Shown here: positions 4,152 to 32,241 of the stretch, piece by piece
Layout of the letters: every line of letters starts with the position of its first letter
Position numbering within the stretch: position 1 is the first letter of the stretch
From: Ochromonas danica
Lineage: Eukaryota > Sar > Chrysophyceae > Chromulinales > Chromulinaceae
NCBI GenBank assembly: GCA_015146655.1
Contig: VKHL01000027.1
Coordinates: 1 to 64,000, forward strand
Direction of reading: 5' to 3'
DNA: 64,000 nt
The notes under the pieces: generated by a model
Seen by the model: the letters and a program-made list of their open reading frames with translations, nothing else
The model's database searches: none
Told to the model about the DNA's origin: nothing
Position numbers and translations under genes: made by a program

Positions 4152-4343
4152 GTTGAGAGAGAAAATAAGATAGATGATGGAAAAGCAAAGCTGCTGAGGT
4201 CCCGTTGGCAGCGAGTGTGTATATATAATTTTACTAAAGAAGATGAGAGTGATTTCAATTTACTGATCTCCGCATTTATATTTATAGGTTGTTGTTTTTG
4301 GTTGCATGAGAAGAAAGGTGATGTGCTACAAGGAATGTTACCT

Positions 4344-7300
4344 TCACTTCGTTGGTTCGTGTTGTGCCTGCTGCTTGACAAAAGCGGAAAGACGCTTAAT
4401 GGAACGAAGTATCTTCATGCGATCTATTCCTCCGATGCGCTCGTTCCCTCCTTGTCCTGAACGACTACCATCAAGTGTCCATTTCACAAGGCACTGTAGG
4501 ACATCTTCCGGGGGCAATGCCCCAAATGCCACCTCTGGATCGGCAATCTTGAGATTGCCTTGGCTAAGGATGTTGACGTTCTGGCTTGGGGTAGTGCCAG
4601 TAATGATCGAGTTGATATTCATTTTGGTGGACTGCTTCCTTGCGTTAATGATGTACATTGCAGCTGCTTCGATAGCAGACGATGCTCGACGACGCTCAGT
4701 GGGCAGCGCATCCTGCCCTTGCGCCTCCGCCTCCTCCTGTGCCTCTACGCGATGCTGACTCATTATTGCAATAATCTCAGCCACAAAATGTTCAACCATC
4801 GCAATGAAGCGTCGTTGCATTTCCGAGTTTATTTCTTGAGTGACTTGTAGAACAGAAGCTTCAGCGAAAACACTATCACTAAGAGTGCCTGAAGCACAGG
4901 ATGCCCGCAGCATCAAGTCGTTCGAAAGGCCACGAACAAACTGCTGACGTCCTTCTTCAACTTTGCGCATCATCTTCTTCCATTGCTTTTTTGCTCTTGA
5001 TGATGATCCTGTTTGTCCTTTCAATCCCAGTGACTCTTTATCGCCTCCCTTCAGCTGACCCATGAGAGCTCTCCACCCACGGTTATCTTGTCGATTGTTG
5101 ATTTCATTGGTCGAGATACCTTGACCAGTGTTTCCTGATACTGTAGTTAAAGCCATAGCAGAGAGCAGACGACGTTTGCCAGTGCTTCCTCCCATATCAA
5201 CAAGGGAGGTAAAGGACATTCTGTAAAAGTCCTGTCCTGGTCTGCTGAAACTTTCGACAAGCACTTTGATCGCACGACGAAAAGTCAATTGGCCTAAAAG
5301 ATCTCGCCTGGTAACTTTTAAACTGCCATCTTTGCCCATCCATTCCGCGGAGAGGAGGTCAGAGAGCTTCAAGGTGAGGCGTGATAGTTGCCAGAGCTCA
5401 AGTTGATTGAGGCAACTGCTCCACACACCGCGCAGACCTCTCTTTTCGAGCGCATCGGCTCGCAAATAACAGTGTAATTGATAAATGGTTACTAAAGCTG
5501 CCAGCATACGTGTCTGAAGCTTGTTAGTTCGATTTAGCCGTTGGCGAATCTCGGAGGTTAAGCGAGTGCGACGAATGGCTTTCGAAGCGTTCAGCCAACG
5601 CAGGAGGTTGGTTTCTAGCTCTTCAAATAGGATACCACACGACTCAGGCAAGGAGATGTCTGGCCAGTTTCCCAAGCCTGAATTAGAGGAAGACGAAGAC
5701 GCTGATGTTCGCAATGTGACAACATCGGGAGCGAAGAAGCGTGGAAGCCACGCAAATGAGAGTTCTGACAACGCCACAGGTGGAAAGATGCCCAAAGGCC
5801 CACGGGAATTCATTCCCCAAGAAGAGGAAACGATAAACGGAATTCCTTCAGCCCAGCGCTTTCCTTCTTCTGAACCACTACTTGTACCCCCTATCTTTAC
5901 ATTCGTAGATGATCCCACACTGCTTCCCTCTACCATAACTTTAGTCATTGTGGCAGAAGGGAGTATAGAGGAATAGAAAAGGGCAGATGCAGCGGAAGAA
6001 GAGAGACTGAGCCGCTCCACCAGAGCTTTCCGAGCTGTCGAAAGACTGCCTCGAAGATTCTTTATTACCTCGACCATTTGTTGCTGGACAAGCTTGGAAG
6101 CCGCCTCCTCACTACTGGGGCCACTGTAGACATTACCAACTACACTACTGTCCAGCAGACAGTTGGAGTAGCAGCTGCCTCGATCAGCGGAGATTATATC
6201 GCAGAAGACGACTGGCAAATGTCTGCCTGTCAAAAGAGCCAACTCTCTAGCTCGTTGAGTAAATATTGACAGTTGCGGCTGACTAGAGTTATCGCTTCCG
6301 GAAAAGATGGGAGCTAAGAAATAGGTGGTAGTTGATCCACAGATACTATCTCGCAACTCCTTCATGAACACAAATTTATCCACCTCTAAACACTCCGCTG
6401 CCACTTCCATCACAACACCCTCCCAATCTCGTATCCCTTCTCTAAAGAACGGTGTGGTGGTGCAAAGCCCTCGCTCCAGTTTAGCCCAGCAGTTTGAAGG
6501 AGCAAGAAGCAAATCACCCAAATTTTGACCTCGTCGCTCAAGGTTTTCGCGCTGCTCACCGAGAGAGAAAGGTGCTTCAAATCGATCATCGTCTTCTTCC
6601 TCCTCCTCGCTGCTTTGATCTTCCGTCCTTTTTGTGGTCAAACTACTACTGTTCATTTCCATGTCATTCTCATCACTATCATCATCAGCGTCGTCATCAT
6701 CATGTTCATTCTCGAAATCCTTATCTTCATCTTCTTTGTTGTACTCATGAAGATGCCCGCCCATCTTCAAATAGTCTCGAAGGACAAGAAAGGCGAGTTG
6801 TAGTAAGGTTGTCGCGGAACCTGGCCACAAAGCCTCTGCCAAAAGCATAGACTGCAAAACAGAGAGTTCCGCGCCACGTGAAAATGCACCTCCAGAGGAA
6901 CTTTCCTCTATATCGAAGCACAATGGAGGTCTACCTGCCATCAAACACTCCAATACTTGGTCAGCCCTTGTCTTACTCAGTTCCGCCTGAGCCATATCGA
7001 GAAGACGTTCTTTCCAACTAAGTAGATCTGCGCGACATCGCAAGAGTTGTCCAGCAAGACCCTTAAAGATAGGTGCAAGAGATGAGTGGCTTTCGATGAG
7101 GATAAGACGCTGAAAGGCCTCTGAATTTTGCACGACATCGAATATATCTTCAACTTGATTAGTCGAGGGGTGAAATGAGGATATTGTTCCTTTGGATAAC
7201 ATTTTCTCCTTTCCAGAAGGTGTCTTTCGAGAGGTCAGCAGTATTCTATTGTTGGTCTGTTGTAGCATATCTTGAAGGAGGGGTGAAACACGCGTGGTTA

Positions 7301-10300
7301 ATCTCCGAGCGTTAAGTTGATGAGTCGGCTCTTCTTGTTGTTCCCTCTTTAACTCATTTCTCTCTGACCGTTGGTGATTCTGTAGCTTTGGCAACAATGT
7401 TTGCTTCCTCTGCTTAGGTAAAGAAGATAGCTTATTCTTCTGGGCAACCACCGAAACAACCGTTGGACGACGAGCTTGTGCGATTTCTTCTGTGGACCTC
7501 TGCGAAGCCCCCAATGCAGCTAAGGCCAGTGCGTTGTTCGTGTGGAAAGCTCGAATACCATGCAACTTGAGCCAGTCTATCTCAAAAGGATCGCCATACG
7601 TCACTGGACCGCGAGTCAAGCGGCTGCATAGTTTGACATCATCAATCTGATCAGCCACAAGGCTACATATCAGGTCATGTGGGGAGTGGGAACAGCAGGA
7701 GTACACAATTGTCCAATCGAAACACCGACGGTTGAAAAACAGGCCATCAGGAATACCGTATCCACGTTCCAGTAACTGCCCTGTTGACCACTTGATGCCT
7801 CTATCTTCCACTTTCGGCTTTTGAAGAACTGGGGCGGAGACAGCCAGAGTACGGAATGCCGTCACTCGCTTCAGAATTGATAGAGGCTGTGGAAATCCTT
7901 CTTCTTCTTCTTCTTCTTCTTGAGAAGTAACAACATCGTTCTTATCTTGTGTATTCGGTTTCAAATCCTCACTAGCTGGACCATGCTGGAACGGAGCTTG
8001 CCCAGCGTTAGCTGTTGAGCACCGACGCAACCGCTGAGTGAGATTATCACCACTGGAAATCAGATAAGCAGAACTCAGTCTCTTGGTTGAGAAAGAAGTG
8101 TCTTCAATGCCTCTCTTAATAGGTAAGAGATGCACAAATCGACGGTCAGGGATTCGCAGTGAATCCAACAATAAATAGGTCAATGCGCGTACTTCATCCA
8201 GAGGAACCGTGCTATTATCTTGAGCCCAACTGCACACCAACAATAGATACTTTACCAAATGTTCACAACCGGGACGGATTGTTAACTCCGCATAACGAGA
8301 AAGATCGCGCAGGAAAGGCTGTTTGAGGGGGTTCAGAAGGAAATGCAATACGTGTGATGCCTTCTGACGTAATGTTGGACTGAGACCCACCGATCGATTC
8401 CCTTCCTCAGCGACCTTCCTTGCTTGATCAGACAAGACAAATCGCTCAGTTTCTTTGCGCATTCCTTGCTGGTCATCTGTAGATGGAGAATCGACGGATT
8501 TCTCTCGAATTCCAGTCACTAAAGGAATTGTTTTATCGGCCTTCTTTGCACTTCGTAGGCATCTTTGGAGTGCAACAATACCATTCCAGACCTTAAGGGC
8601 ACCCAATAAGGAGCTCGGTACTTTCTTTATCAAGGCCTTAACACCATTTGAATTGTTGAAGAACATCGACAAGAGATGAGTTGCTAAGGAAGCAGGGGAT
8701 AAACTGTACGGGGCAAATAGATCCGCGGTCGGCAACAACAACCCACAAAGCCTTAAAAAGTCTGCTGACATCGAGAAGAGATTCATCACACAAGAAAGAT
8801 AAACCACCCCCTCTCTCCACAGTAAACGTGCTCTCATAATTTCTTCCTTTAACGACTCTCGGCGAACTATAGCTTTACAGAGAGTTTCGACTACTTGCTC
8901 GCTGGAAAGAATACTCAAAGAGACAGTTTCCTGGTCAACAAGTCCTTCAATATGAAAGACTTTTTCGCTACTGAGGATGTCTCCCTCTAGCCAATGATAG
9001 ACAACGCCAATAATCTCTCTTTCCATATCCAGTAGCGATCGGCATGTAAGTACAATTTGTTGACTAAGTGCTTGCAACTTGAAAGGCAACGATTGACCGG
9101 AGCCGGCTTGTATTGCTAAGAGCTTATGAGCAAGCCGATAGGCAAATGAATTAGAGGTTGCTGTATGCTTTTCACAGGCTGCATTCAGAGGATTAACTTC
9201 CACTATCAATGGTGAAGCAGAGCAAGTCCAGTGTAATATTGTTAGTTGTTGAAGGCAAGCGAGTGGTAACGGCGAACTGCGGCCATTTCCATCCAACACT
9301 GCGGATCTATTACTAATCAGAACTACGCGAAAACGCGGAGGTATGAGGATATGCGGAGCCAGCGATCTCTCACCGACAAGACAGCCCACATTGATGATTA
9401 GTCTGGGACACATCTTATCTGCTTCTAAGCAATTGTCTGAATCGAATCCGTAAGTTTCATCCAGTTCTGCACTCAACAACGTAATTAGGTCGTCTGATAC
9501 ACCTGCATGTACATCATAAATCACCAAGTAAATAGAAGCATCTCTGCTTTTATTATCCAAAGCATTTCTTCGCCAGGTGTCAAAAACAGGGAGAGAAAAG
9601 CGTTGTGCTGGAAGAGAATAAGTCTCAAAACCATTTGGAGCGGCATCTATTATAGCCGTAAGCGCGACATTATCAGGATCTACTACTAAAGTATGGGCGG
9701 GAGACAAATAAAGCAAAGAAAGACAATTCATTGAAGGTATATCATATGATGCGCTCACTTCCGAAAAGGAGCAAAAGGATCGAAATTGTAACCGATCAAA
9801 AATGGAACCTGCTAATATTGGAGTTTCGGTGCATGCTATTTTATGGAAGCGCATATGACGACGCATCATATCTGCACAATCTTGCCGTTGTGAATCTGGT
9901 AACCATCCACTGCGATATAATACAGCCACAATCAAGCAGAGATCGCCAACTAGATTCCTCAATATCTTGTAGAGATGGTCCACCTCCTCCTCAATAAACA
10001 ACCGGAATTGGGTCAAACCCTTCATAATAACAGGCTTCCTAGTCCTATTTTTTTCCATTATATCTATTTTCTTGCGATTTGATAGCATGCTGCCTTCTAT
10101 TGATGTCATTTTCCCCATAAGATGTTCCAATTTAGCCTTAAGTTCGTTGGACTGACTGGCCTGTGCATCAGCATTTGCTTTTCTCAAAGAAATTAATTCC
10201 ATTTCAAGCACTTCAACATGGGGCCGGCGCTCCCTCACACATTGATTGGCCACAATATGCAAGTCCAAACTCAGTAAAAATCTACGTAAACAATCTGCGG

Positions 10301-13300
10301 TAGGTTGCTCATCAGGATTTGGTCCAGCAAGAGTTTCTTGCATTTCAAACCTTTTCTCAGGAGAGCAAAATTCCGTGTCAAAATACGGCACAAACTGACT
10401 ATTCAGTAGAGAGTTCATCACTCTCAAGGCATTACTCTGTGCTGAAGACAGATTAGTAGCCTGTACGGCACAGAGTTGATTCACGAAATCATGTGGCTTT
10501 ATCAACAATGTCAATGCACATTTGGCGACCACTTCATCATCCATTTTAACGTTTCCCGCTCCAGACTTATCGCCCTTTAGGATTTTGGGAGGAGAATAGT
10601 TGATGACTACCATTAGAGCCCTCATCATCTCAATATAGGCTTTAGGAGTTATCTTTCCATTATAACTCTTGCTTAAAACGTGCCAATCAGAGGCAGAGAA
10701 AGAACGCAGTTGGTTCTTACGTTGTAAGACTTGATTTTCAACATTTTGAATGAACGAATCAATGTGCCAGGACATGCATGAAATTTCCTCTTTCAACATC
10801 AATTCTATTTCGTAGTTTGAGCTCTTTTGGAATGAAATATGCAAGTTCTCGAGATTCTTTCTTGTATCGTCAACCTCTTTTGAGAGTTCTCTTACAATTT
10901 TGGCCAATTCCTCATTGTTTTCGGCCAATCGCTGGTTCATGTCCTCATCATGCTCAAGAATGCTGCAAGATTCTTGCAGACCAACCAAGACGTGCTCGAG
11001 AACACACTTGCTCTTCAACAACTCTCGTCCCTGATAACTGAGAATCCACATGACAGTTTGCATCGCTCTCTGTGAGATCGATTCCATGCTTTCTGTGTAT
11101 GCGTGCTCCTTAAGAAAAAGACCATCGCTTGGCAAGGACAGAGTAAGAAGAGACGGCAAGAGAACCTTCGCTTCATCCAAGAAAAGTGGCAAAGCCTTTT
11201 CAGCTTCTAGGTTTGCCATCTCACTTCGAAGATACTCAGTCTCGAAAGAGCGAAAAACGCCAAAAAGATGGACAATAGAAGAGATTTTTTCATGTTGCCA
11301 GCAGCTTAATGAGCAGTGGTTGGGTCCATTTGTAGTGATCAGGTGAAGATGAATAGATCGAGATTCTGTCGAGGAGGATGTGAATTTCACACGGCGCTGT
11401 TCATCCTTTTCTTGCGCTTCTTTTTCCACAGCGGTTAGCCTGCGCGATGTATTAGTATCTGGGAGAGTTTCAGATAAAGCGGACGTGTGATAGCTTCCGA
11501 CTGGCAAAGTTCGCAAAGGCAATAGCAAAACATTGTCAAGACTTCTGCCTGAATGGATAGCTTGCTTATTCCTCATAAAGACCGTCGCAAGGCCATTTAC
11601 CGCTTCATTACTTCCAATTTCATACCAGATTAAATTGAACTTTCTATTCAGAATAGGGCCCAGGATGGGACACGTGAAAATGCTCTGTGCCAAAGGAACG
11701 CCGAGATTGCTGTTATTGCCTACCACCCCTCCCAATCCACCAACACTGCCTCCATTTACTCCATTGGAGGTTTCAACGCCAGATTCATCAATCGCTGCAT
11801 CAGACCGGTTTCCCACAGTAGTCAAACTTGCTGCTGGATTGAAGAGGACTTGTGGCTTATCCATTCCTTGGTCAGAAGAGCGAGCAGTTCGCATAGAGAA
11901 TCTACGGCCCATTGTTGGTTGATAGAAACCAGGGGATGACCCTGAAGGCGATGGACTCTGCAGGCCAATATGCTTTGCATCAATTCCCCCGCTAACACTC
12001 AATTTTTGAATTGGTGCAGCTTTCTCGCCATTAGCCTTGTTTGATGACTTTGCATGACTTTGTCCAACCGATTTACGCAACAATATTGAACAATCCTGAC
12101 CGGAATAATACATCGCAGGACTGATCTCTACCACTGCAGCAAGACTTAAATTCAAGATCACACAGAAGTTACCTTGCAAAGATGAACGCAAATGCGACTT
12201 AATCCAATGAAAGCTATACCCTGTTAGTCCTTGCTTCGATTTGAGTGCCGAAGAGGTAACGACTTTTTGTGATGTAACTGGGAGCGATTCATCTTTCACA
12301 TCGGTGGTACTTTCATCGAAAGACTCCTTGGATATATCTTCTGTAGCTCCTCCCCCAGTGCTAACCAAGGCGGTATTTTCTCCAAGATTTTCAACAAGTC
12401 CTTCCTTGAGATCCGCTGCGTCAACAGATCTCGCAGCAGAGAGGGCTTCCATAGACGGATTGCTCATTGCATTAGGAATATTAGCATGAAGTGCCGTGGC
12501 TGCAGGCCCTGTATCTTGTTGTGATTGAATATGTTCATGTTTTACTTGAACTTCTCTTTCGCGTGTGCTTTTAGCTTCTCTTCGAAGAGCGTCAATCATG
12601 CCTAGTCCAAAGGAAGTAACAATTAAAAACTAAATAGCATGGCAGTTTAGAAAAATGTGTACCCGTACTTACCAAGCAATTCTGCGTCTTCAAAGAGCAC
12701 CGTAGGGTCCACGAAATCCACAATATGTAAAAGATAGCGTCTTTCGATTTCACTAAGTTGTTGGGCCTCGTTGACAACATAGACAATGTTCTGACTAGGG
12801 CAGATAGAATAATAGACTTGTTCTGGAAAAAGGGGAATTGATCCTAGGTCTGGACGACGTCCCTGCTCAATATCGTCTGCTCGAACTGGATCTGAGAATC
12901 CTGTTGCTCGGAGTACAGCTGCCTTCAAACTTTGTTTGAATTTGAAAGCAGGCGAAGCAATTTCAGAGCGAGTGTCAGCAACCGATTGAGATGGTTTCGC
13001 AGCAAATACCATGGCTTCCAGCCGACAGATCCGAGCAGCCAACATCAAGGCTGATCGTTTCGAGCAGCCAGGATAGCCAGCAACGACGAGATGTCTCTTC
13101 TGGACGGAGAGCACTCGAACCAATCGGAGGAGAAGAGAAAGAGCTGAGGGATAAAGAAGAGCTCGTGCCTCAGAGTCACTGAGATAGCCTGCCAGATTGA
13201 TTTCCAACGTTTGAGCATTACAAAACGACGAAATTTCGTTCGCTGGAATTATTTCCTTATAGTCAAGGCTCTGTGCGCACCATTCCCCGCTTTGGAGCCA

Positions 13301-16300
13301 CTTCTTAATCGGAGCAACATTTAAAGATACAGGAAGATAGAGACTCATCCAAGTCTTTGCTAGCAGTTCTCGATTATTGTCTCCTTCTTGAGCAACACCG
13401 TTGGTTTCGGTTACTTCCGGCTCAAAAATCAAAGAGTTCATCCAAAGCTTGTCATTGGTTGAAGAAAGCTCTTCTTTTATCTCTTTAATCCAATCGTGAG
13501 AAACTGCCCAAACCTTTTCGTCCAGATTGTCCAAATGTTCATGCATAAGTCCAAGAAGACGATCTCTTTGAGCCCCAAGAGGCAAAGGATCCAAGAAATA
13601 GCGCTTCCACTCATGTGCATATAACTGCAGAAGTCCACCAGGGTTCTTTATGTGAACACTTCCATATCTTAGAGAAAGAGAGAATCTAGAAACAGCCCCA
13701 ATATCCAGAAGAATCATAACCCGCAAAGTTCTCTCCAAGGTGGTAGTGAGCTGTAGATCAACCGAACTAATGGTTTTTAAGCCCAAATTCAAGGTGATCC
13801 GAGAAAGATCGGATACCTCTGACTGTAATAGGCTTAACAGGCTAAGATCCTCTACAACGGTGGACATCATCACAAAAGCACCTGACACTAAGGCGACGTG
13901 GAGCTCAGCCACAGTTAGACTAGGCAGACTCAGCATAGCAAAGTGAGAAGCGATGTGGTTTAACCAAGACTTGTTTCGATGATCATTGTATTGGCCGCTA
14001 GCAGCACTAATTAGGCCAAGTTGTTGCAATAGATAGTTATCCCTCAAGCTTTGCTGTACTCGAATATCTGTGAATGTTTCTCGATGAAGAAGAGGCAGTG
14101 CTTGATTGCTTGCGAGAAATCCTCCATCATTCGATCCACGGTGATGACCTAACGTTAAAGGACTGCGCACAGTTGGGTTGGCACGAATTCCGAAACATGG
14201 ATGGCCATACAATAGTCCGCGTAACAACTCATCGATCCGGTCGGCAACAAGAGAAGATCGTCCTGGATCGTTTATGCACTCGCTTCTCAATGAAAGGACA
14301 TGAACGTCATCGATAAAAGCCACACCATAACTGAAACGGGCAGTTTCGAGAATTCCATTAACCTCAGTGGCAAACTCTCTCTCCAACCAGCTTCGTACTC
14401 CCCTAACACTTTCATGCACACATAAACTTGTTGATGCGCTCGAAACAGCTCTTGCAACGCAATTAGCTCTTGCTGAACCATGCGCGAAAGTCTAAAGAAA
14501 GAAATCGACAGAACGAATTGTTAAGCGTAACACTGAATTGTATGATGACATTCATTACCTCGAGGTCTGAATTAATAGCCCTCCAAAGGGTATTGAAATC
14601 GTTTTGATCGTCTTTCTCGCGCAATTGAATATTTGCTGACTTGAAGAGAATCGTACGAATAATCTCCAGTGCCCGAAAGATTCCTTGGGGGACAGTCGCT
14701 CCACAGAGAATATCCAACAACTTCTCGATTATTTGCCTGCGAAGATCTGAAGGAGAGGGGGTTTCTTGTCGGAAATACTCCAAAGTGCCTTGAATTAAAT
14801 GGGTTTTGCCACTTCCTTTCTGTCCAAAGAGTAGTACGTTTGCACCAGCTGTTACTAACAAGCGAAGGACAGAAGATACAGCTCTCGACGACATGGAGCG
14901 AAAGACAAGCGTTCCTGGGCCTGAGGAATTGTCTATAAACTCACAGAAGATATTTTGTTCGAGCTGTTTCGCTGTCAAACAGGAATTTTGGAGAATCTGC
15001 CTACCACCTTTCCCATACTCCAATGCCGGAACCAATTCAGCATTATCAACATCAAAATAGAGCTCAAAGACAAGACAATCTGACGGAATAACAACATCTG
15101 GATCCATGTAATGCTGGACTGTGTCTCGAATGATACTGTCAAAGAACTTCCTTTTCTCACTGCTGTTCAACGCTCCACCAAAGCCCCAAATTGCTGCGTA
15201 AACGACTGAAAGGCGGGCCCTTCGTAATAAAATTTCCCTTACCCGGGGAGAAAGGGACATTGTACCTGCAAACTTGATGCTCTTCGACAAGCTCGGTCTC
15301 CATTCGACACCCATTGAGCTTCTGGACTCTCCTTTGTCGATTTCAGTGGATTCCGCCCAAAGAGACGAATGTTTGTCGTTTGGAAGCGCCTTGGTATCAT
15401 TTTCTTCGTCGGAATCACTTGCGGATTCTCTGTCAGTAGCAACGAAGGAAGCAAACGGTAACACCGATTCCTGCACTTGGAGCAACAACTCCTCGAGAAG
15501 ACGCAAGAAAGAACCAAGCTGGGAATTAAGAAGAGCTAAAGCGGGCGTTTCTCCACTGGATAAGTGCTCATAAAGCATGTCCTCAACAAAGTTTGTTTCA
15601 AGCAGCAATTTATTCATCTCATCCATAAAGTCAAGCCACGGAGCAAAATCGCCCAGCCAATGGGTTACGCTTCGTGTCCAAACAGTTATTATTCGATTAA
15701 TGCATTCCGCCGATGTAGCAGAGAAGTTCATCAAGGGAATGAGGCTAAGGCAGTTCGGAGAAGCCTGACTAATATCATCGGTTTCCACCAGGATCTTAGT
15801 GCTTGGAGGCACAACAAGAAGTTCATTGGTGGGCAGCATAATACCTCGTTGTTGTACATTAAACCCAGCAACAGCCGCTGAAACGACGACACGAGGTGTT
15901 TGAAAGTAAATGGAATGAAGGAGCTCCTCTATAAATAAGTTCATAGGACCATCCAGAATGATGAAATACTTGCTTTCAATCGTTTCAAGATGGGAAAGTC
16001 CCTTAAGAGAACTGCTTCGTCTCTCTTCTTCAGAATGGTCGCGATCCACAAATCTACGGAGGCTGCGCACAAGCAAACCATCCATCCACCGACCCGCCTG
16101 ATCATATCCGCCTAGCAGTGCACTGGAGGATATAGAAGCATGAAAAATTATAGCCACATTCGCTCTCGCTGATTCGATCTTCTCTTTCTTGGTTGATGAA
16201 GGGATATTGTGGTTCTCCACTGGCAGTTGGGCGGAAATATCTTTGTCATGGTTGCTTTTGTCTCTCTTCTTCATCAAGATATTTCGTTTGAGAAAAAAGC

Positions 16301-19300
16301 CAATCTTCTGCGCTGCAATTCTCAACATGACAGGTTTAGCTATACTGGAAAACTCAATTTTCTTTAGTTCATGAGATGGAACATTGTTCAGAGCCTCAAT
16401 AGCTATTTTCCACAGAGCAGTCTTTCCACTGGCAGCCTCACCATGCAGAATAACGACAGGAGAGTTTGTGCTTTGAATCAAATTTAGAAAGAGTGCTGCG
16501 GTATGAACAAACTTGTGCTTGCAGACCAATCCAACTGAGTAAGCAGCTTGAACAATGGCACGAGAAATAGGTTCTCGAATATGCAGTTGGTCATTATCAG
16601 CGCACTCTCGAAATACTCTAAGTTCCTCCGCAAGGGCCACACAGTCTAATTTCTTTAGGAAGGGACCTAAAAACTGCTCTCGAAGGCTCTTAAGGACGTC
16701 AGTGTCATAGCAAACCAAAGCGAGGATGCGATGCCAAATATTGCCCACAAAGCAGCTAATCTCGTCTTGGTATCTACACACATTGTTTAATTGACCTTCT
16801 TTCACAATCTCACTTTTTCTCTCTTCCACTAGGCTAGGCCGTCTAGCATACAGGGCTAAAGAGATTTGGCAATCTTTGATGAGCGACTCCAGGGAAGTTT
16901 GCTTGATGATCTCTTGAATGCATTGAACCCTTTGACGATGCCCCTTACTACTGTCGCCAGAATCAGTTGTTGGTGAGAAGATGCCTTGCAGAGACTGCAG
17001 GAAGGTAGCTTGGATATCCAAACCATAAAGAAACCCAGCACTGGCGAGCAATAGACCCAGATGATGACAGGCAGAAGCAAAAGGAACTGTCACAACATCG
17101 AAGATGCTTCTATATAGCTGATCGCCTTCCCACCCTGTTGAGAACTCTGTTTCGGTCGCAAACCCAACAAGAATGAAGTGCACATGCATATTCAGCTTCT
17201 GCTTCATAAAGATATCATTCCGAAAACTCTTTAGCGCAGCTTTCCTTCGTTCACTGTGTGTTTCATTTCTTGTGAACCGAGCACGCAGCGGAAAGTGCAA
17301 AGCGTCTTGCACGGCTTGATCGCTCCTGCTGTCCAACATAGACCAGAAATACTGTGCGGCCTGAACAACGTTCTGCATACCATCCTGCCTTATCATAGTG
17401 AAGTCTAGGCAGCCAATAGCATCCAGAAGAATAACTTTTGCGAAGAAATAGCGCACGCTAGGCATATGAGAAGCTTGTGTGAGAGTAACACTTAGCCGAC
17501 CAAGTGCGCGTGCGATATCCGCAGCAGATATTCCATATTCTTCATTACCTCCTCCAGCCATTTTTATATTCTCTGAGGCATGGACAAGGGTGGTACCATG
17601 CCAACAAAAAGACGCGCTGAGAACACGGCTGAGAACGAAATCAAGTTCTCTTTTGGGTAGCCAAGCACACCCAGACTCTTGATATTCCATACCATAGCAC
17701 AGAGCTATGTTACCAACAACTATATCGATAGGACAATGATTATAACGTTGCTCCTTAGCATACTGAAATCGTAATTGATAATGAGTCATCCAAAGCTCCA
17801 AGGCACTCTCCAAACAATCGCAATCCAACAGGTTCCGAGCTATTTGCATATGATAAACTTCCTGAACTGCAAGACCTGACAATATGGAGCGGCTCTTAGC
17901 AAGAGAAGTGCGTGTAAGAGGCATGCAGGTTCCAACCAAAAATTGGAGTCTGGACAAATTTTGCTCACAGCAATTTATAAACTCCGCCAAGTGTTCTTTC
18001 CATCTAGAAGCGAATGCCACATTTTCAATGATTAAATCTGGCCGAGCCATAATAATACTTCCAGTAGGATGGCCTAAACACGTCCATAGGTCTTCTGCAA
18101 AGCTTATGGAATTGGAAAGTAAAAAGGCCGAGTTGATAACCTCATTACTTATCGAACTTTGAAGGTGGTCACAACGTAGATGAAAGAAAGACGGCATATT
18201 CTTGAGGACAAGATCGGCATTACCATCCGACAGCAAAGCCTTTGTGCAATTAATACGATGTACCATCAACAGATCACATGCCTTTTCGATAACAAGACGT
18301 AACGAATCGGAGAATTTCAAGACAAACTCGTCCAGGGAAAGAGTAAAAGGAATTGGCTCTGCAAATACAACTTTATCTACTTTATGGCTGCTGATAAAGC
18401 CAGTACAACCGTAGATCTTCTGACTGCTCAACAGCACCACTGTCAATCTACCCACTCCTTCAAACATCCCTTCCATACACGACGAAACGAACGAGAGTTC
18501 AGATTGTGGACCCAGTAACCACACTCTCAGCAAAGACAAGAGACGAGTGTACGACAATAATGTTAGTCGAGGGCAGCCTTCCAGCATGGATTGAAGGCAG
18601 CTATGAACATCATCCGATACAGCTGACAGACTAGTTCGAATGCTATCAGTGTTAAGATCACTGTCGGCAGCGGAGATAAAAGCAGAGAAGAGGTTTCCAC
18701 TCTTTTGTTGCAATAAATTTTCCATCTTCTTCATATCCTCTGTACAATTGTTGTACGATCGTATCGAGTCGCGGTCAATCTCTCCACGAGGTAGTAGTTT
18801 CACGAAGGGGAGCAGGTGAATCCACCACAGTTGCACTTCCATATAGCCTTGAATAAAGCTATCAATGCGTAAAGCAAGGCTTTTCGACTTGAACAGTCGT
18901 GTGTCGAATGTGGAAAGACCCATATCTTGGGCGGTGGCTTCGACAATCAAAAGTGCCTTCCAACAATAGCGAGATAGCAGACGAAGAGGGAAGAGATTCA
19001 CTATTTCGTTCACCTCCACACCAACTTTATCATGCAATCGTTGATCCCGAAGCCATTCTCCAGAACTTTGTACAGAGGCAATGCGCAAGGCTTCCTCCAC
19101 AGAATCAAGCGTTTTCTCAAGGAAAGATTCGATGACGGCCTCCGAAACAATATATTCTACCATGTCCAGGTTTTTCCATACATTTCTATATATGATATTG
19201 TGTGTATTCATAAAAACTCGAAAACCAGAAAAAGTTAAAACTATACTAACGGGAATATGACTGACCTGGAAAAGAGATCTCTCGAATAGACTCTGCTCAC

Positions 19301-22300
19301 ATGCCCCAAACCAACAGGCTCTCTTCCAGAGACATCCAAAAGACTTACAAATTCGGAATTCTTGCCTGAAAGTTTAACGTCAACGCCGCTCTGGAGAAGC
19401 ACTTTTTGCCTCAAATAAACCCAATGATGTGGTCGAAGAACCTTGCTCGAGAGAGATGCCACAAGTCGAACTTTTGGAATAATTTCTTTGATGCAACGAT
19501 CTAATTTGGAGACTAAGTCGAGATCGCTGAGGTTATCTCTAAGATAATTCATGGCATCATTAAGAGAGACATAGCGCACATGCAGATCAGGAAGACTTAA
19601 AGAACCCAATCGAGAAGCGTTCAAAATATCGACCAATGAATTCACACTTTCAAGAGTCATCCATGCTCGGCATTTAGCATCGTAATCCTTCTCCAATTGC
19701 TCCATAGAAAGAAATGATTCCACCTGATTGGGCAGCAGCACCATATTGGCTGCCCCAACAATATCATGAGCTTCTACCAGCAATTGCTGAGCATCAACAT
19801 TCTCTTCCACTTGCTTCCTCAGTTTTGCCACTTCATTTCCTTGCCTTGTGATAACATTCTTCTCCTCTTCGCCAACAGATTGCAAACTTTCATCAGGTCC
19901 TTCTTCAGCCGCGCGCAGCTCGCGAATGTCAGAAGTCATAGAAGATATTCTCAGTTGAAGCTTGTGCCTGCTAATTAATACTGCATCTTTGAGATCGACT
20001 AGCTGGGTGAAGAGATAGGACCTCAGCTTGGCAATAGCTATCGTCATACGCTCTAACGCCTCGTTCAAAACTCTATGCATTTTCTCAGGATGAATTGCTG
20101 AAGCATGTGCTTGATGACCGCGAGAAGAAAGCAAGTTTTCAATCATAACTTCTCGCATAGAGATATCTGCAAGCTGTCTTCGTTGCTCACAAGCAGAAAT
20201 TATTTGATATACGGCCTCACAGAACTCAACTTCTCCATCCAAGAACTCTTTCATTTGGTCAAAGTATTTCAATTTACGCATCAATTCCATGAGCTCCATG
20301 GTAGATTTATTTTGCGAATCAAATATGCTTTCCAACTTCCGCACAAAATCATGTAAAATGGTGCACCTTGTGTTGTAGGCGGTGGGCAAGCGTTGAAACA
20401 GTACATACTCCTGGATAGCGCGATAAATGCCGATCTGTTCTAGTAAAGGCCCGAAATTGGTTACCAGGCCTATTCGGTGTTTTAGATTCAAGAAATTATC
20501 AAGCTGTGCTTGTAGTTTCTCGAGATAGGCTGCCGCTGCACGGAAGGCCACTAACCGGCTTTTGTCGCGGGTTTGAGCGCGTTTAAGGTCCTCCAAGGAA
20601 TCGGGATGGTCAATGAAAGTTCTGAGTTTAGGCAGACATGCACTTCGCTCGATCTGCTTAGCCAGCATCAAGGGTGAAACACCACAAAGCTTTCTTAGCG
20701 TTTCAAAAAGGCGGGAGATGAACGCCTCTATATCAGAAGCTTCTTGATAGGCCTGATGGATGAGGCGGATGAAGTCAACGGCCAATTGATAAGCAAAACG
20801 ACTATTGTAAATAGGTCGCATAACAAGAACAGTGAAATAATTGCTACTTTGCGCATTCTGCAGCTCGCCAAGTCCCAGATCGATATTGTGATTTGACTCC
20901 AAGCGTACCGTCGTATTCAGCAGGTCTTGCTGTGGATCATAAATCAATTCATGTTTGCGCAGATCAGGGAGGGAGTCAATTATTCGTCCAAGAGCTCCAC
21001 ATAGGTTGTGAACTTGCTGTATTAACGTAGACTTGGAGGGTGATAATGCTACGGAAAGGCAATCCAGCCCTCCGAGGCCAATAAAATCCTTGGCCTCCGC
21101 ATGTCGCCCTCCGACCGTTAAGAATACAGCAATAGAAAGATGACTACCTTGACTCTCCCATTCTTTAGTAACCTTTGCGAAGACCGATCGATCTCTTGAA
21201 ATTAGCAACTGCTCTGATTGGTCTTCTTCGTTCTCCACCTTCTCATCTTCCTGTTCCATATCCTTCTGTAGATCATGCAACGAATTAGCTTGTTCTTCAG
21301 TGACAATTCCAGCATTCTTGCCACTTCCTCTGTTAGGTCCAGTAGCTGATGCAAGCAACTCATTCGCGTTGAAGGCAGTAGATCGCAAAGAGCCGCTGGA
21401 TTGGAACAGAAGTTCATTGAGAGGCCAGAAGACAACACTATCATCCGCCGTTTTCTTCCTTGGTAGATTGTGGAGACCAATCAAAAACTGCTTAAGGCGC
21501 AACCAGAATATTTCGAGTAATCTCGAAACGGAGACTTCTAGCGCAAGTTGTGCCATCTGCAACACTTTTACCAACTTCTGTCGAAAGTCTTCGCGCAAGC
21601 GTTGGACTGATCTTAGACGCACCCAATCAATAGATTCCTCTGTTTTCTCATTTGTCATCGTTACAAGAGGCATCTCTCCACGCAGTGGATGGTGTCGCCG
21701 AACCTCCTGTTCTTGTTCCTGCAATCGCTGGCTCCCTAGAAAGGATCGATAATAGCTATGCATAGCTTCACTCAGCTCGAGAATACGCTCTGAAAGCTCC
21801 TCTCGCACATCATCAAGATATGCTAGCTGGAGATTAATGTAATCTTGGAGGTTAACGAGGCCTGACCGAGAAGGGAAACAAAAGAGCTCAATCTCCGTCT
21901 CAATAGCATAAGTAGCCTTGCCCACTTTCCATCGAGCTTCCACTAATTCGGAATCGGAGAAGAATGTACTTTTGGCCAACTTTGTTCGCGCTTGGCTCAC
22001 AGCCTCTCTTCGCGCAGCCCCAGCCCATGCACGAAAGATCTTGAGTGCACGAAAATGACGGAAGAAGGGCTTACTCTGTAATATATCAAACTGCTGCATT
22101 TCCTTAAGTAGGGTAGGAATGGGAATAAGCTCCGCGGAGTCTTCATCGTCGTCAACTTCGACTGGCGGCACTAGCAGACCATGCAATGAGAGTTGGAAAA
22201 CCGACGACCTCCCCTTTCTTCGATCACCATTCCGCCTCTCCCTCACTCTTTCCATTACTTCCTTCCTGTTTTCTCCGGACCGAAGTGATAAAGTTGATTG

Positions 22301-23044
22301 CCCAGGCAATTCTAGAACGACCAGGTCATAGAAGTGATCTCGCGGAGTGACATGTAAAAATGCTTCTTCCCCACAAGATAGGAGAAATGCTAATGCCTCT
22401 TTTACAGTCATTTGGGTGATTTGCGTTGATCCCAAAGAGAGTAGAGTGTTGTTTTGCGATGAGTAACGAGTTTGAGATGAAGGAAGATGTGCGCTGCGCC
22501 TCTGTTCTCCTCGTTCAGACATAGGCTGTGATGGCTTTCGGGCATCTTGGTGAGCAGCTTTATATAGTAGACTTTCTTGTGAACCAATAATTTCTCTTTT
22601 AGCATCACCTGCGGCGGCTATGACAGTTGGAAAGGGCGAGATATGCGCCTGCAATCGATGACTCAAAGATGTGCTTCTCACAGAAGCAGTTAATGGGCGC
22701 GGAGATCTATCACCATGACCAGATGGTTTGAGAAAGGAGTTGCCCATATCTTTCGCATTAAGAGGGGTTGTCGGTATGTCTGCGTGAGGGATAGGGGGAG
22801 TACCTTCTCCACCCCTACTCCTCCGCCCAGGGCTGACGTTTCCCTCGATAAGAGGTGCACTAGCAGGAGGTCCTGAGGCCCACTCATAGAAATTCAGAGA
22901 AACTTGCTTAGGAGAAAGAGTGCGATAGGGTCTCTTCGTGGCACGACGCGTTTGATCTGGAGGTGCCGGTGCAAACCCGCCGCCTTGAGTGAAGGGACGT
23001 GCCCAGCGTTCATCCTTACCTCCTCTCCCTCGAATATCTTCCAT
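4344..23044 (-). CDS. Giant divergent dynein heavy-chain homologue with degenerate AAA1 (predicted non-motor pseudo-dynein)
   Basis: Exons 23044-19266, 19185-14559, 14491-12673, 12601-4344 join at GT-AG sites in continuous frame (18,483 nt, 6160 aa). The dynein order is intact. Axonemal-type tail elements: DHFYDLVVL near 235, FFRHFRALKIFRAW near 325. Linker about 1110-1500. AAA1 about 1730-2060. AAA2 has Walker A GEAASGKT (2175-2182) and Walker B FIILDGP (near 2335). AAA3 has GQKGSGKT (2714-2721) and FIDDVH (near 2861). AAA4 has the altered P-loop GYPGCSKRS (3274-3282). The coiled-coil stalk (about 3930-4060) is followed by a microtubule-binding-like segment with YSPPKIL near 4080. AAA5 is marked by VVDP near 4378 and PPRFRVVLIS near 4495, and AAA6/C-terminal modules follow. 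In AAA1 the invariant GPAGTGKTET is absent: the aligned segment reads HGTTLVHASENIK, and CFDEFNR is GCLDFTMIR (1851-1859). Normal chains are about 4000-5000 aa; extra length lies in Ser-rich (3415-3900) and acidic (5363-5413) insertions. DNHD1 is a possible relative. Confidence 0.85.
19186..19265 (-). other. Intron 1 of the dynein-like gene
   Basis: TTTTCCAG|GTCAGT donor and ATATATAG|AAATG acceptor, 80 nt. Splicing makes an AG|A Arg codon and joins the linker sequence without a frame change. The other two introns are 14490 to 14558 and 12602 to 12672. All three are short and have GT-AG ends. Together they show that four long open frames form one gene. Confidence 0.85.
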
Positions 23045-23259: not shown

Positions 23260-26200
23260 CTACACAAAGGTATCCGGTAGCAACTGGAACCCCAGCACGT
23301 GCTCCACCACTCTTTTGAGCTTCTCTCGCACCGGCAAGCGGCGAATAGATACCTGTTTTGTGAAGGAACACCACAGCTCACCCATATTAGGTTCAGCAAT
23401 TTCGCACCTTCTGGTGAGCTTGGCCAATACATCAGATGATGCGGAAGCAGAAGCGCTAAGAACCGAAGCATCTTCGACTTTGCTAGAGGCATCTGGGAGT
23501 GTAGGAGATGTTAAAGCATCTGGTGACTCATCGTCATCATCATCGACACCTGCCATTGCTTCACGTCCCTCATCTTCCTTCTCTTCCCCTCGAGTGGAGA
23601 CTTCATTCGTGTCATCTTCCTGCTGTCCGTGAACTCTTTGTACCGCAGCAATAGTTCGGCGATAATGTACACTTTCTTCCGCATCTGCCATCAGTGGTTC
23701 TCCACTTCCAACACGTATCTCTTCCTCTAGATATGTTGCAAGATCTCTTTTGTGCCTTTGAACATAGAGACAAACCCAATAGTAGACGTACACGTCTCCG
23801 TGACGGGGTTGCAGTGCAAGCGCGCGCTCGAAGTATTTTGTTGCTTTTAGAGGAAGGTGACAGCGATCAAATAACCTCGCCACGGCAAGCAGAGCTTCAC
23901 TATCTTGAGAGCATTTTTTAAGCGCCTCCACTGCACGACTCTTGTACTGGTTACGAGGGATATGTAAAAGAATTTCTTTATGGACCAAACCAGAGGTGGG
24001 GCAATCGGCTAAAGCGCGCGCTGCCAGACCTTGGTAATGCTTTGAAAGCACGGCATTGGTGATTGAGGTGGATGCCTGCGCATGACGACGTTCGAGACGC
24101 AAACATTCAACCCATACTTCAGCATTTTTAGGGCAGGACAGACGAGCCTTCTCTCCAATGGAACGAGCTTTCAAGAGACCACGGCTGGTTTCTTCGAGGC
24201 GGAGCAGAGCTTTCCAGAGAGTAGCACAAGTAGGTATGGTCTTCAATCCATCCTGAAAGGCTATACGAGCCTGGTCGATGTTGTGGAGATCCTCTCCCAA
24301 AACCTGTCCCAACATGAGATAGTACTTGGTGAATGTCGAGAAACGTTGAATACCCAGCCGTAAGGTGGCAACGCATGCTTCGAAAGCACCCTCTTCTCGC
24401 TCAAAAAGTGCTTTTTTGAGAAACAAACGCGGCGATGGTTGGGGTAGATGATCAACAGCCTTCTTTAGGAGTGCGCGAGCACGATCAATTTCTCCTGCCT
24501 CCCATTCCAATTTGATAGCCGCAAGATATATCTCTTCGCTAGCGGGGTTGGCTTGAAAGCCACGCATCAGTACCTCACGTGCTGCTTTAACATCTCCAGC
24601 CGTCGTCCACAGTTCCTTGGCATACAACAGCCAGAAGACTTCAACTTGTGGCAAAGCATGACAAGCCTGCTCGAGGCGCCGGAAGAGTAAGTTGGAGTCA
24701 CCGAAGTCTTGCTCAAGCGCAATAGCGGCGAGATAGATTGATCGTCGTTGAGGAAAGGCATTGATCGTCACATCAAGAATAGCACGTGCTGTCATGAGTG
24801 GTATCTTTGGAGAGCTGCTGTTGGATGCTGAACGTCCTTCGTAAATTAGATGCTGAACGTCCTCTAGCATAACACGCTTGCGATCCTCAACATCCAACCC
24901 TACCATTATCGTGCGCGAGACAAGTGCTTGACAAGTGATGGGAGCCCCATGAAGAAGTTCGCAGTCGACTGCTTCTGCAAGCCAATCCTCTCTTTTGACG
25001 ATTACCTCCAGCTGAGCAAGAGAAAGCAACATCTTGTCCAAGATTCGCCCCACCAACTGACTTTGACCATTTACTTCCTCCAATACTGCAGCCATGATCC
25101 AAACCTTGCGTTCTGTTGGTAAGTTCTCTCTGGCCAGGTTAAGTACTTTTCGCGCAGCTGCATGTGTCTCCAAGCGTGCCAGCGCAAGATAGACATCTAG
25201 ACACTTTGGAATACACTCAATGGCACGAGAAAGCAAAATTTTCGCATCCTGTGCATCTTCGAGATCAACAGCAGCTTTCCACAGCGTCACACTGTTTGGT
25301 ACATTCTCTAAACCCAAACGCAATATCGCTTTTTTCTCTTCCACTCGCTCCTCCTGCGAAGCAAGCTGTAAGTAGAGTTTTACCGACTGTGGCAGTGCAC
25401 GGAGTGCATTGCGAAGAATAACACGAGCTTTATCAGGTGGATGAAGCCGGGACGCTTCGAGCCAAACATCTTCACTGTGCGGTGCCTGTATACAATACAT
25501 ACATAACAAAAATAAAAATCTGGAAGGATAAATCGCGGTAAATGCGATATCTCCTTACCTTCTCACAGCCGTCTAAAATAACCTTACGGGCAGCAACAAT
25601 TTTGTTCGCATACTCCTCCACTCGAGCAGCGGCAATCCATCCCGGTCCATGAGTTGGGTTGGTTGACGTCACTGATTGTAGAAGTACACGAGCTTTTTTG
25701 ATATCTCCAACTTCCGCTTCGGAGCTCACCTTGATTGCGCTTAGAGAGGTTAGATATCCCTTAGGGTCAACTACTGTTTGTCCAGAGACAGAGTCAGAAA
25801 TTTTATCTAATCTGGAGGTGAGTACAGATGACTGTCTGCCAAGGGAAGTGGCGGCGCCTTCCAATGGATCAACACTTCGCTCAAGAGCTGTCACTTGGTT
25901 ATTCTGCAGCATCACGCTGTCAGGTAAAGGCATAAAACTATCCTTTTTGCGAGTCTGTTTTAGTTTGAGGCTATGATCACCAATTTCTGGAATGGCATCC
26001 CATTCAGCAACAGAGACCGCGGCCAAATCTCTTTTAAGATCGGCAAACTGATCAGCTATGCGTGGCCGCTCGTGCTTACTTCGTTTAAGTTGATCTTGGA
26101 TAAGTTGCTTTTCTCTCACCCTTTTTCTGCGTGCTTCCATGGCATCGTCGACACTTGTATAGATGGCGTCCGCCTCAACATCATCTTCTTCATAGGCAGC

Positions 26201-26591
26201 ATGAGAGAAGAGGCGCTCAGAATATCCTGTAAATTCATCATAATTGCTCTCACTGTAGTCCATACGATCCATTTCAGTGGCTGCAAGAACATTGGTTAGT
26301 GTGGCGCCAAACAGCTGTCTAAAATGGAGAAAACGTCTTACCGGCAGGAACAGGGGCTGCCACTCCCTGACTACGAGCAAGGTCTCCCATGCCACGTCCT
26401 AGGCCTGCCACATAACCTGGTGGTGGCTGCCCAAAGGCAGCATCCACAGAAGGAGCGCCGGTCGCTGGTCGGGCGGGACCTATGTCTGATCGCGTCGTGA
26501 AACCCAGGGCACCGCGACCAATACCCGCAACATAATTGGATGGAGCAGAGATGTTATAAGTGGGTGCTGATCTGGGTCCAACGCCACTCAT
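23260..26591 (-). CDS. PRP6: Pre-mRNA-splicing factor PRP6 (U5/tri-snRNP HAT-repeat protein)
   Basis: Exons 26591-26342, 26280-25559, 25485-23260; 1065 aa. PRP6 bridges U5 and U4/U6 in the tri-snRNP in the nucleus. The N-terminus carries GYVAGLGRG and [12 protein letters not shown], the hallmark of the PRP1_N domain, in an unusual double form: [22 protein letters not shown] first, GYVAGLGRG again about 40 residues later. Then come [19 protein letters not shown] and [14 protein letters not shown], all conserved in PRP6. From about residue 290 to the end run HAT/TPR-like helical repeats (for example [33 protein letters not shown]). The C-terminal part has an acidic insertion ([10 protein letters not shown]) before the conserved MGELWCSF segment. 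Human PRP6 is 941 aa. The start was chosen as MSGVG because the conserved domain begins soon after it. It encodes part of the machinery that removes the introns seen throughout this window. Confidence 0.95.
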
Positions 26592-29547: not shown

Positions 29548-29811
29548 TCTATTGCCCAGCGAACTGACTGTCAATCAACCTATTTGTTTCTGACTCGTTT
29601 GCGTTTGAGAATTCTGACGGCACTTCTTTCTCGAAATTTGAGACTCTGTTCTGGGGAAACTTCGAGTTCGTGTCGTCAGGTGCTGCTCGTTGCGTGGGAG
29701 AGGTGCGCATCGGACAAGACGGAAGACCAGTTCAACCACTAGATGAGGGAAGAAGAAATTCTCTTTGGGGTGCTGTTAAATTTCTGCGATTAGACTTCTA
29801 TTCCCTATAGC
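29548..29811. promoter_or_regulatory. Probable shared promoter of ABC1K (-) and receiver protein (+)
   Basis: The two divergent start codons are 264 bp apart, so both promoters must lie or overlap here. I see no recognised box. The assignment rests on gene geometry only. Confidence 0.5.
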
Positions 29812-32241
29812 ATGGACCTTAATCCTCATTCGTCGCGACCGACGGATGCATATGATGGGGGCGATGGAATAATTGGAACATTCATTGGGAGCAAAGACCT
29901 CCTGCCGCCTGATTCTGGCATTCCCTACCATCCCAGCGACGATCCCTCGAAACAACCTTTTCTGGTCATCAAAAACTCCTTTCCAAAATCCTCTATTACT
30001 CAAATTATGTCAAACTATTTTAAGAAGTTCGTAAACAAATATGCTTTCCACAATGACTCGAAGGTCTATGTAACGGCCAATGAGGAAATGGATGAATATC
30101 TCGGTGCCTCAGGGAAGATGGAGCGAGGCAACAAATTCCATTCGAATGGGTTGGAGCAGACCTTTGCTGTGACATGTTATTCCTCGGCTGATAGCAACGA
30201 CTGTTATCAAGTAATTGCTCCCAGAGATGAGACGACGGGAGGTAAAGGGCCCGATGCTGCCAAAATTCCTTCCCGAAAGAGCATTCCCCGTCTTGCTGTC
30301 TCGTCTTCATCTAATTCTTCCCAAGAGTTGCTGGATACGGATTCAGATGGGAGTAGTCCTTGTGGTCGAAATGTCATAATCGTGGATGATTCAGTTGTAC
30401 ACCGAAAAATCCTCACAAAACTATTCTCAGGTCATGGGTTTGAGGTAGTCGAGTTAGCTGATGGATTGGAAGCTGTTGAATTGCTGGCACGTGTGATGCA
30501 GACCTTGCCAGCGTATGAAATGAGCTTCCAAGATCTCCATAAGATCCAACAGATGGAGCGACATGGAAGCAGCGTTAAAGTTCTACATGACAGTATCGAG
30601 CAGTCGCTGAGTAGTGTCAAGGTGAATAGTTTCGTGAAAGCAGCAGCTCAACCTCATGCTCCCCAACACATGATCTCAGCGGACAGCTCAAGAAGCCTAA
30701 GCTCCAGCAGTGGAAGTTGCAAATTAGAAAAGGAAAAGGTCTCACCATCTTCCCAAGCTCGTCAGCAACTTCTATTGCGTTCTCGCATGCTCAGTCATCG
30801 CTCATCCTCGTCAAATTTGGTCGCTGTCTCACCAGAATCCGCAATCAGTTGTGCGCAAGAAGTGATGATCGACAACGACCGTATTGCCAATTACAGCAAA
30901 TTCTACTACAATGTCAATAGCCACCTGGCCATGGCTCCGCATTTTGCTTTGGATCGCAACTGCTCTTTTACTGCTCCCTCCAGCAGCTGTACTACAGCCC
31001 GGGGCACACCGCGTTTGCTGCAATATGCCTTGATTCATAGCCACCAACAACAATCCAGTCGAAGCATCGTGTCTTCCGAGGATAATAGCCCGAAATTCCC
31101 GTCTCCCGCTGAGGAGAAAAGTGTTGCTCCTGAAAGCTACAGTTTAACCGATGGAAGCACGCTATCTCTGGAGGACAGTGTGGTGGATTGCATTGCACCA
31201 CAAGTGATGTTGAAGATTCGCAAAGAAAATATTGATCTATCAGAATTTTTGGCCAATCGTGCAGAGGTTTTAGAGCAGATTGACAACCAAGCCTTCAACG
31301 ATGCTTATTTTGCCCAGACCCGACAGAACTCCTCCTTTCCCCCCTCCAATTCTATCCCATGTTCGTCAACAAATGGCTCGCCCATCGGCAAAGATGGCGA
31401 GCCGAAACCAAACAGGGAAGTGGCCAACCCTGCACCTCAGCGACGCATTTCAGGAGATCACGAGTTCTCCACTGCTTTGGAAGGCGATGGAGATAATGAT
31501 ACGAATGAAGATCATCCGCTATGCCCTGCTATTGGCATTATTGGCCGTCAAAACAGCACGGTGGTCCGAGAGATGGTTCTTAATAGCCCACGCATCATGA
31601 ATGATATCCTTATCCATTTATCACCTTTCCATGGTTCGTCCGGAATCGTAGAAAGTGGGAGTAGCATGGCAGGGGTTACAGAGATGGCGTCCTCTTCATC
31701 GTTCCGTGTGGAGAGTTATGATGAAGCAGAGCGAGCACCGGTAAGCTGGGGAAGAAGTAAGCGCTCTTCTTTCTCACACATATCCAATGGTTTGGCTTCT
31801 AATGCTCGCACCAGTCTCCTCAAGAACTCTTTAACGAATACATCCCATGTTTACGCGGATTCGATGGCATCCGCGCTTAACATCAGTACAGCCTTTCAAA
31901 AGATTCTTTCGGAACGTTGGAAAGAAGTAGATATCATCATCATGGATTTCGTGATGGTCAATATGAACGGTCCAGAAGCTGTCGAATTGATCCGTTCAAT
32001 GGGATACAAGGGATTGATTATCGGTCTGACGGCGAAAGCACTGTCAAACGATATCAACATCTTCCTTATTCACGGTGTAGATGCAGTCTTCTCCAAGCCT
32101 CTCAATTGGAACCTCTTTGTGGAGACCTATGAGATTCTGTCTCGCCACAAAGCTATGCACCATGAAGAGGGGAAGGGTTCTCCAACTGATGGTGCAGTGC
32201 GGGAGCAGGAAGATAGTAGCAGTACAACAACGTCACGTTAG
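29812..32241 (+). CDS. Response-regulator receiver protein whose domain is split by a ~465-residue insertion
   Basis: Single exon, 809 aa. The N-terminal 180 residues are not recognised. A receiver domain begins with RNVIIVDDSVVHRK (acidic pair D192-D193) and helix 1 up to DGLEAVELL. It resumes only near residue 700 with VDIIIMDFVMVNMNGPEAV. There D712 is the phospho-acceptor, followed by GLTAKAL (T740) and VFSKPL (K762). All catalytic positions of a His-Asp phosphorelay receiver are therefore present, so it may be functional. The segment between (about 235-700) is Ser/Gln/Asn-rich and low in complexity, so probably disordered. The insertion falls between helix 1/strand 2 and strand 3, which must pair in the fold. 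The Gly-Tyr-x-Gly loop (MGYKGLIIGLTAKA) resembles receivers common in algal and stramenopile hybrid kinases. No kinase or output domain is seen. A partner histidine kinase is not encoded in the window. Confidence 0.82.
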   Translation: MDLNPHSSRPTDAYDGGDGIIGTFIGSKDLLPPDSGIPYHPSDDPSKQPFLVIKNSFPKSSITQIMSNYFKKFVNKYAFHNDSKVYVTANEEMDEYLGASGKMERGNKFHSNGLEQTFAVTCYSSADSNDCYQVIAPRDETTGGKGPDAAKIPSRKSIPRLAVSSSSNSSQELLDTDSDGSSPCGRNVIIVDDSVVHRKILTKLFSGHGFEVVELADGLEAVELLARVMQTLPAYEMSFQDLHKIQQMERHGSSVKVLHDSIEQSLSSVKVNSFVKAAAQPHAPQHMISADSSRSLSSSSGSCKLEKEKVSPSSQARQQLLLRSRMLSHRSSSSNLVAVSPESAISCAQEVMIDNDRIANYSKFYYNVNSHLAMAPHFALDRNCSFTAPSSSCTTARGTPRLLQYALIHSHQQQSSRSIVSSEDNSPKFPSPAEEKSVAPESYSLTDGSTLSLEDSVVDCIAPQVMLKIRKENIDLSEFLANRAEVLEQIDNQAFNDAYFAQTRQNSSFPPSNSIPCSSTNGSPIGKDGEPKPNREVANPAPQRRISGDHEFSTALEGDGDNDTNEDHPLCPAIGIIGRQNSTVVREMVLNSPRIMNDILIHLSPFHGSSGIVESGSSMAGVTEMASSSSFRVESYDEAERAPVSWGRSKRSSFSHISNGLASNARTSLLKNSLTNTSHVYADSMASALNISTAFQKILSERWKEVDIIIMDFVMVNMNGPEAVELIRSMGYKGLIIGLTAKALSNDINIFLIHGVDAVFSKPLNWNLFVETYEILSRHKAMHHEEGKGSPTDGAVREQEDSSSTTTSR

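Follow-up and report, generated by a model that had tools for sequence, protein, structure and literature searches.

Can a dynein heavy chain (DHC) be maintained after the loss of AAA1, the site whose ATP hydrolysis is regarded as the defining activity of dyneins, and what could such a protein be used for? This question is raised by a gene in a 64,000-nucleotide stretch of the chrysophyte Ochromonas danica (GenBank assembly GCA_015146655.1, contig VKHL01000027.1, C27 in our numbering, positions 1 to 64,000 of the forward strand; hereafter the window). Between 23044 and 4344 on the minus strand, four exons without any internal stop encode a DHC relative of 6160 residues that, judged from its sequence, belongs to the dynein family, has lost its AAA1 site and is conserved in this altered form. 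A first-pass annotation of the window had proposed a dead AAA1 in a non-decaying member of the dynein family, and this is now backed by homologues, profiles and structure comparison.

Loss of the AAA1 site

None of the hallmarks of a motor-active AAA1 (GxxGxGKT, the Walker B glutamate and the sensor-I asparagine) is found in the window protein or in the five of five further homologues that cover AAA1: GxxxxGK[ST] is absent in 6/6 family sequences, the glutamate position is occupied by Phe in 6/6, and the sensor-I motif is lost as well. The O. danica assembly (31.2 Mb, 337 contigs) was searched for canonical counterparts. GPAGTGKT is present in all of the aligned canonical AAA1 sequences (n = 9), and at the 20 AAA_6 loci, which are distributed over 16 contigs, Walker B reads CFDEFNR or CLDEFNR in 20/20 and TMNPGYAGR is found in 15/20. 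The strict P-loop GP[AS]GTGKTxT occurs at 16 of these loci and GPAGTGKTES at two; it was not found at L015 and L017, where the AAA_6 matches are split into several pieces.

The texts quoted in the first-pass annotation, YGMEYQESG, HGTTLVHASENIK (17600-17562) and GCLDFTMIR (17414-17388), lie in the minus-strand frame exactly where they had been placed. The loss of the Walker A site likewise holds, but it had been positioned slightly too early, as the erased P-loop directly follows HGTTLVH, the probable beta1 strand of the AAA fold; the stretch in question (ASENIKMAGGGNEEY) precedes the retained helix ISAADIARALG (canonical TTKDLAKALG). All six family members have E-[YF]-x-[VI]-[ST]-x-x-D-x3-ALGR in common, the helix of which corresponds to the canonical KDLAKALG. 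With ungapped anchoring on this helix, the position of the catalytic lysine holds Tyr or Phe in 6/6, and in the gapped alignment preferred by hhalign it is a residue other than Lys in 5/6. The family Walker B reads GC[LVI][DNE]F with the Asp kept in 4/6, and at the position of TMNPGYAGR the family has [IV]G[FM][AG][ST][ED].

The similarity that remains is more than chance, because the AAA1 profile of the six family sequences scored 56.8 against the nine canonical AAA1 sequences, whereas 60 column-shuffled controls reached at most 26.5; a comparison of the core profiles gave 33.8, with shuffled controls at most at 22.2. At the level of primary structure, AAA1 thus keeps a dynein-like pattern without the residues for ATP binding and splitting.

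Conservation of the altered protein

Three protein searches yielded homologues (4 of 8000 scored, 3 of 1480 and 1 of 8000). The predicted O. danica protein P0007 represents the same gene (1608/1615 residues identical to the window protein); it is spliced identically at junction 2, which as a prediction is no proof of expression, and intron 3 is left unspliced in it. Junction 1 is spanned continuously by P0008, and P0011 and P0012 are collinear across junction 3. Besides P0007, the five further homologues are P0008 (2747 aa), P0009 (910 aa), P0010 (1724 aa), P0011 (7739 aa) and P0012 (7062 aa), the last two of which are full length and align with the window protein over nearly its entire length.

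The altered AAA1 is common to the window protein and all five, and its core (residues 1757-1956) is 63.5% identical to P0008, which is above 91% of 125 overlapping 200-residue windows, 42.0% identical to P0011 and 28.5% identical to P0012, the latter two both above 80% of 298 such windows. As the altered AAA1 recurs in the homologues and its core has diverged less than most of the protein, the giant DHC relative is, on these alignments, not a product of decay, in agreement with the argument that had been drawn from the 6160-codon open frame.

Domain order and features

In the profile check that had been suggested for this gene, Dynein_AAA_lid and AAA_7 matched above the Pfam cut-off and DHC_N2 and AAA_8 below it, in canonical order, with the linker upstream of a dynein-type AAA series as in the DHC superfamily. 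DHC_N2 remains below the cut-off because intron 1 splits the linker. AAA_6 gave no match in the window gene at E<=10, and no dynein-like Pfam match was found in exon 4. Profiles built from the family matched the DHCs of the same genome with the linker (E 4.3e-7), the region from the AAA1 lid to AAA2 (7.5e-12), AAA3 (5.8e-8), AAA4 (8.2e-5) and AAA5 (5.7e-5; also backed by hhalign, E 1.4e-4), and the AAA1-AAA2 profile matched yeast dynein over the AAA1 lid and the AAA2 P-loop (E 1.7e-8); family profiles of the stalk, AAA6 and the C-terminus gave no significant match among the DHCs of this genome. As had been claimed, the P-loops of AAA2 (GEAASGKT) and AAA3 (GQKGSGKT) are kept. The features, all on the minus strand, are:

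4344-23044: whole gene, 6160 aa; exons 23044-19266, 19185-14559, 14491-12673 and 12601-4344
19265-19186, 14558-14492 and 12672-12602: introns 1-3 (GT-AG; 80, 67 and 71 bp)
21485-22147: DNAH6-type tail block, residues 300-520, with the FFxxFRxxKxFxxW motif at 22066-22025
17697-19747: linker (DHC_N2), residues about 1100-1756, interrupted by intron 1; below the Pfam cut-off on both sides of it
16695-17696: AAA1 position, residues about 1757-2090, catalytic site lost (family alignment, profiles, structure comparison)
17529-17600: HGTTLVH and the loop in the place of the Walker A P-loop (alignment of family and canonical sequences)
17388-17414: GCLDFTMIR, Walker B position of AAA1
17133-17174: ILVGFATETEFSTG, sensor-I position of AAA1 (canonical TMNPGYAGR)
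16419-16442: AAA2 P-loop GEAASGKT
15936-15962: AAA2 Walker B position, IILDGPMNL
14802-14825: AAA3 P-loop GQKGSGKT (Pfam, homologue alignment)
14297-14317: AAA3 Walker B, FIDDVHV
13052-13078: degenerate AAA4 P-loop GYPGCSKRS (Pfam, homologue alignment)
10701-10949: modelled stalk coiled coil 1, residues 3960-4042
10302-10700: modelled tip resembling a microtubule-binding domain, residues 4043-4175
10050-10301: modelled stalk coiled coil 2, residues 4176-4259
9027-9821: AAA5, residues about 4336-4600 (family profiles, hhalign)
4344-8729: C-terminal part, residues about 4700-6160, with blocks conserved in P0011 and P0012

In the C-terminal 1460 residues, acidic low-complexity runs lie between the conserved blocks, and no known domain was found there.

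Tail, stalk and dynein class

From which dynein class does the protein descend? The tail points to DNAH6, a single-headed inner-arm dynein. In the PDB the tail profile reached nine DHCs with E-values between 3e-9 and 2.8e-4. Three of them, including the best match at 3e-9, are named DNAH6, and six carry no class name; one more unnamed DHC followed at E 5.5, and up to E 10 no chain named as outer-arm, cytoplasmic or another DNAH number appeared. The window tail alone matched two chains of the Chlamydomonas axoneme (E 6e-5 and 9e-4; structure 8glv, which we take to be from Chlamydomonas) and reached DNAH6 chains only at 0.10-0.24. Within the same genome, the tail block matched one of eight DHC tail regions, that on contig C56 (E 7.4e-9), the tail of which is itself DNAH6-like (7.9e-27); other frames gave 0.17 and worse, and introns could mask matches in the other tail regions. 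An origin in the DNAH6-type inner-arm class is therefore probable. A stalk model built from three sequences (pLDDT 69.8) found dynein stalks as its best structural matches, and according to this model a microtubule-gripping stalk is probably kept in the related proteins.

Compared with a DNAH6-type inner-arm DHC, the window protein shows the same succession of FFxxFRxxKxFxxW tail block, linker, AAA2, AAA3, stalk-like region and AAA5, but its AAA1 site is lost, its AAA4 is degenerate, its AAA6 and C-terminal domain are not detected, and the family measures 6160-7739 aa versus about 4150 aa. With the cytoplasmic dynein 1 heavy chain it shares the region from the AAA1 lid to the AAA2 P-loop, which matches yeast and human dynein, but not the dead AAA1 and the DNAH6-type tail. 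A separate cytoplasmic dynein-like chain lies on contig C19 of the same genome and an outer-arm-like chain on contig C28, and as a canonical AAA_6 match occurs together with a Dynein_heavy match on 16 contigs, the AAA1-dead gene is additional to the motor set. Contig C80 (L046) carries a 5171-codon frame with a weak AAA_6 match, presumably midasin (MDN1/Rea1) as named from its tandem AAA sequence; midasin also is a giant AAA protein, but it is a different gene, and linker, stalk model and dynein lid belong to the window gene.

Proposed function and its alternatives

As nucleotide binding at AAA1 is lost, no power stroke is to be expected, and on established dynein mechanics both an AAA1-powered linker stroke and an AAA1-driven release from microtubules should be impossible. 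The AAA1 cycle sets microtubule affinity through the registry of the stalk coils (available part of PMC12338079), and the stalk should therefore stay in a single state, most probably that of tight binding. With the engine site erased and the rest, probably the stalk too, kept in related proteins, the protein may serve to hold on to microtubules instead of walking along them, and given the inner-arm tail, it would most likely be used within the flagellar axoneme as a tether, brake or scaffold. In such a constellation, the AAA2 and AAA3 P-loops would probably hold nucleotide and stabilize or tune the ring, the tail would probably be docked to the row of inner arms, with the stalk gripping a neighboring microtubule, either permanently or tuned by AAA3. 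We give about even chances to this reading, in which a heavy chain of probable DNAH6-type inner-arm origin turned into a conserved pseudo-motor and serves as a docked tether, brake or scaffold. The axonemal or scaffold role suggested in the first-pass annotation thereby gains support from the tail and the modelled stalk, while we infer its place in the axoneme, its binding to microtubules and its nucleotide state. More tentatively, the protein could represent a non-motor class of axonemal dyneins, an inner-arm chain locked in tight binding by the loss of AAA1, which would permanently tether doublet to doublet, or brake mechanically, beside active dyneins.

Several observations weigh against the proposed pseudo-motor. 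In an unrooted linker-to-AAA2 tree of the family with seven chains of the same genome, the family branch, 2.1 long, stands beside the cytoplasmic-like L010 (support 0.40) and not beside the DNAH6-like C56. The stalk relies on the three-sequence model, whose 15.0 is, by the tool's own warning, little above the level that mostly helical models reach, and the Pfam search of the window protein gave no stalk domain. The predicted AAA1 structure is poor (pLDDT 44), the AAA1 profile alone reached no significant match by hmmsearch among the DHCs of this genome (best E 0.03), and in one of the two alignments a single Lys of P0012 (AKEEY), not embedded in a P-loop, falls at the catalytic position. The AAA1 position and AAA2-AAA5 were found, but neither family profiles nor hhalign detected AAA6 or the C-terminal domain.

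What alternatives exist? The same AAA1-dead protein could act away from the axoneme and reuse its tail in a scaffold of basal bodies, microtubule roots or organelles, which would suit the long N- and C-terminal stretches in which no known domain was recognized and the only remote identity of the tail to DNAH6; as the modelled stalk is dynein-like and the tail profile below E 1 matches no chains other than DNAH6-type and unnamed axonemal DHCs, we consider this unlikely, though worth keeping in mind. Could the protein still be a motor, with AAA3 as main ATPase? The AAA3 P-loop is kept in 5/5 and the Walker B FIDD in 4/4 in the homologue alignment, but AAA4, the neighbor of this site, is degenerate, and known dyneins stroke by AAA1 with AAA3 in a regulatory role (as given in the accessible sections of PMC12338079), which makes such a motor quite improbable.

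A chrysophyte counterpart of DNHD1, an ancient orphan DHC of animals that is not a motor, is likewise very doubtful; we compared the family with it by published description. By that description DNHD1 is the closest known case, a dynein-related heavy chain apart from the motor families, an orphan and possibly decaying (excerpt of PMC8754002), and it is tied to defects of the sperm flagellum; however, it is known from animals and has 4753 aa (available text of PMC9916431), as compared to the 6160-7739 aa of the present family. Finally, a decaying pseudogene would account for the vanished canonical AAA1 residues, the high divergence and the proximity, at about 4.3 kb, of a telomere-like repeat, but with 6160 open codons, full-length homologues of 7739 and 7062 aa and an AAA1 core conserved above the average of the protein, this explanation is hardly credible. 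The docked pseudo-motor remains our preferred reading.

The surrounding locus

Positions 1-78, the very start of the contig, consist of 13 perfect CTAACC units, a telomere-like repeat, which places the giant gene at a distance of about 4.3 kb from what is probably the end of a chromosome. At 23260-26398, the upstream partner of a divergent gene pair, on the same strand, encodes a HAT/TPR-repeat protein, presumably a PRP6-like splicing factor. Further along are an 815-codon open frame with a response-regulator receiver domain (29794-32241), a class I aminoacyl-tRNA synthetase exon (40812-41840; top Pfam match tRNA-synt_1), a frame carrying an ATG17-like autophagy domain (54837-56000) and a GcpE frame of the isoprenoid pathway (60366-62243).

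Significance

We found no other AAA1-dead heavy chain in the open-access literature searched. The 2022 nomenclature review lists, in its available part, one orphan dynein-related gene, DNHD1, called a ghost gene (PMC8754002), and a 2007 survey, as far as its accessible text goes, put extremely divergent sequences aside (PMC2239267). The present family would offer a comparison case for DNHD1, which may be either a ghost gene or a functional protein. A constrained chain in which AAA1 is erased, while the tail, the AAA2 and AAA3 P-loops and a modelled stalk are present, would be a natural test of how ring and stalk behave once the motor site is gone, and the axonemal use of passive, dynein-shaped tethers becomes a directly testable question.
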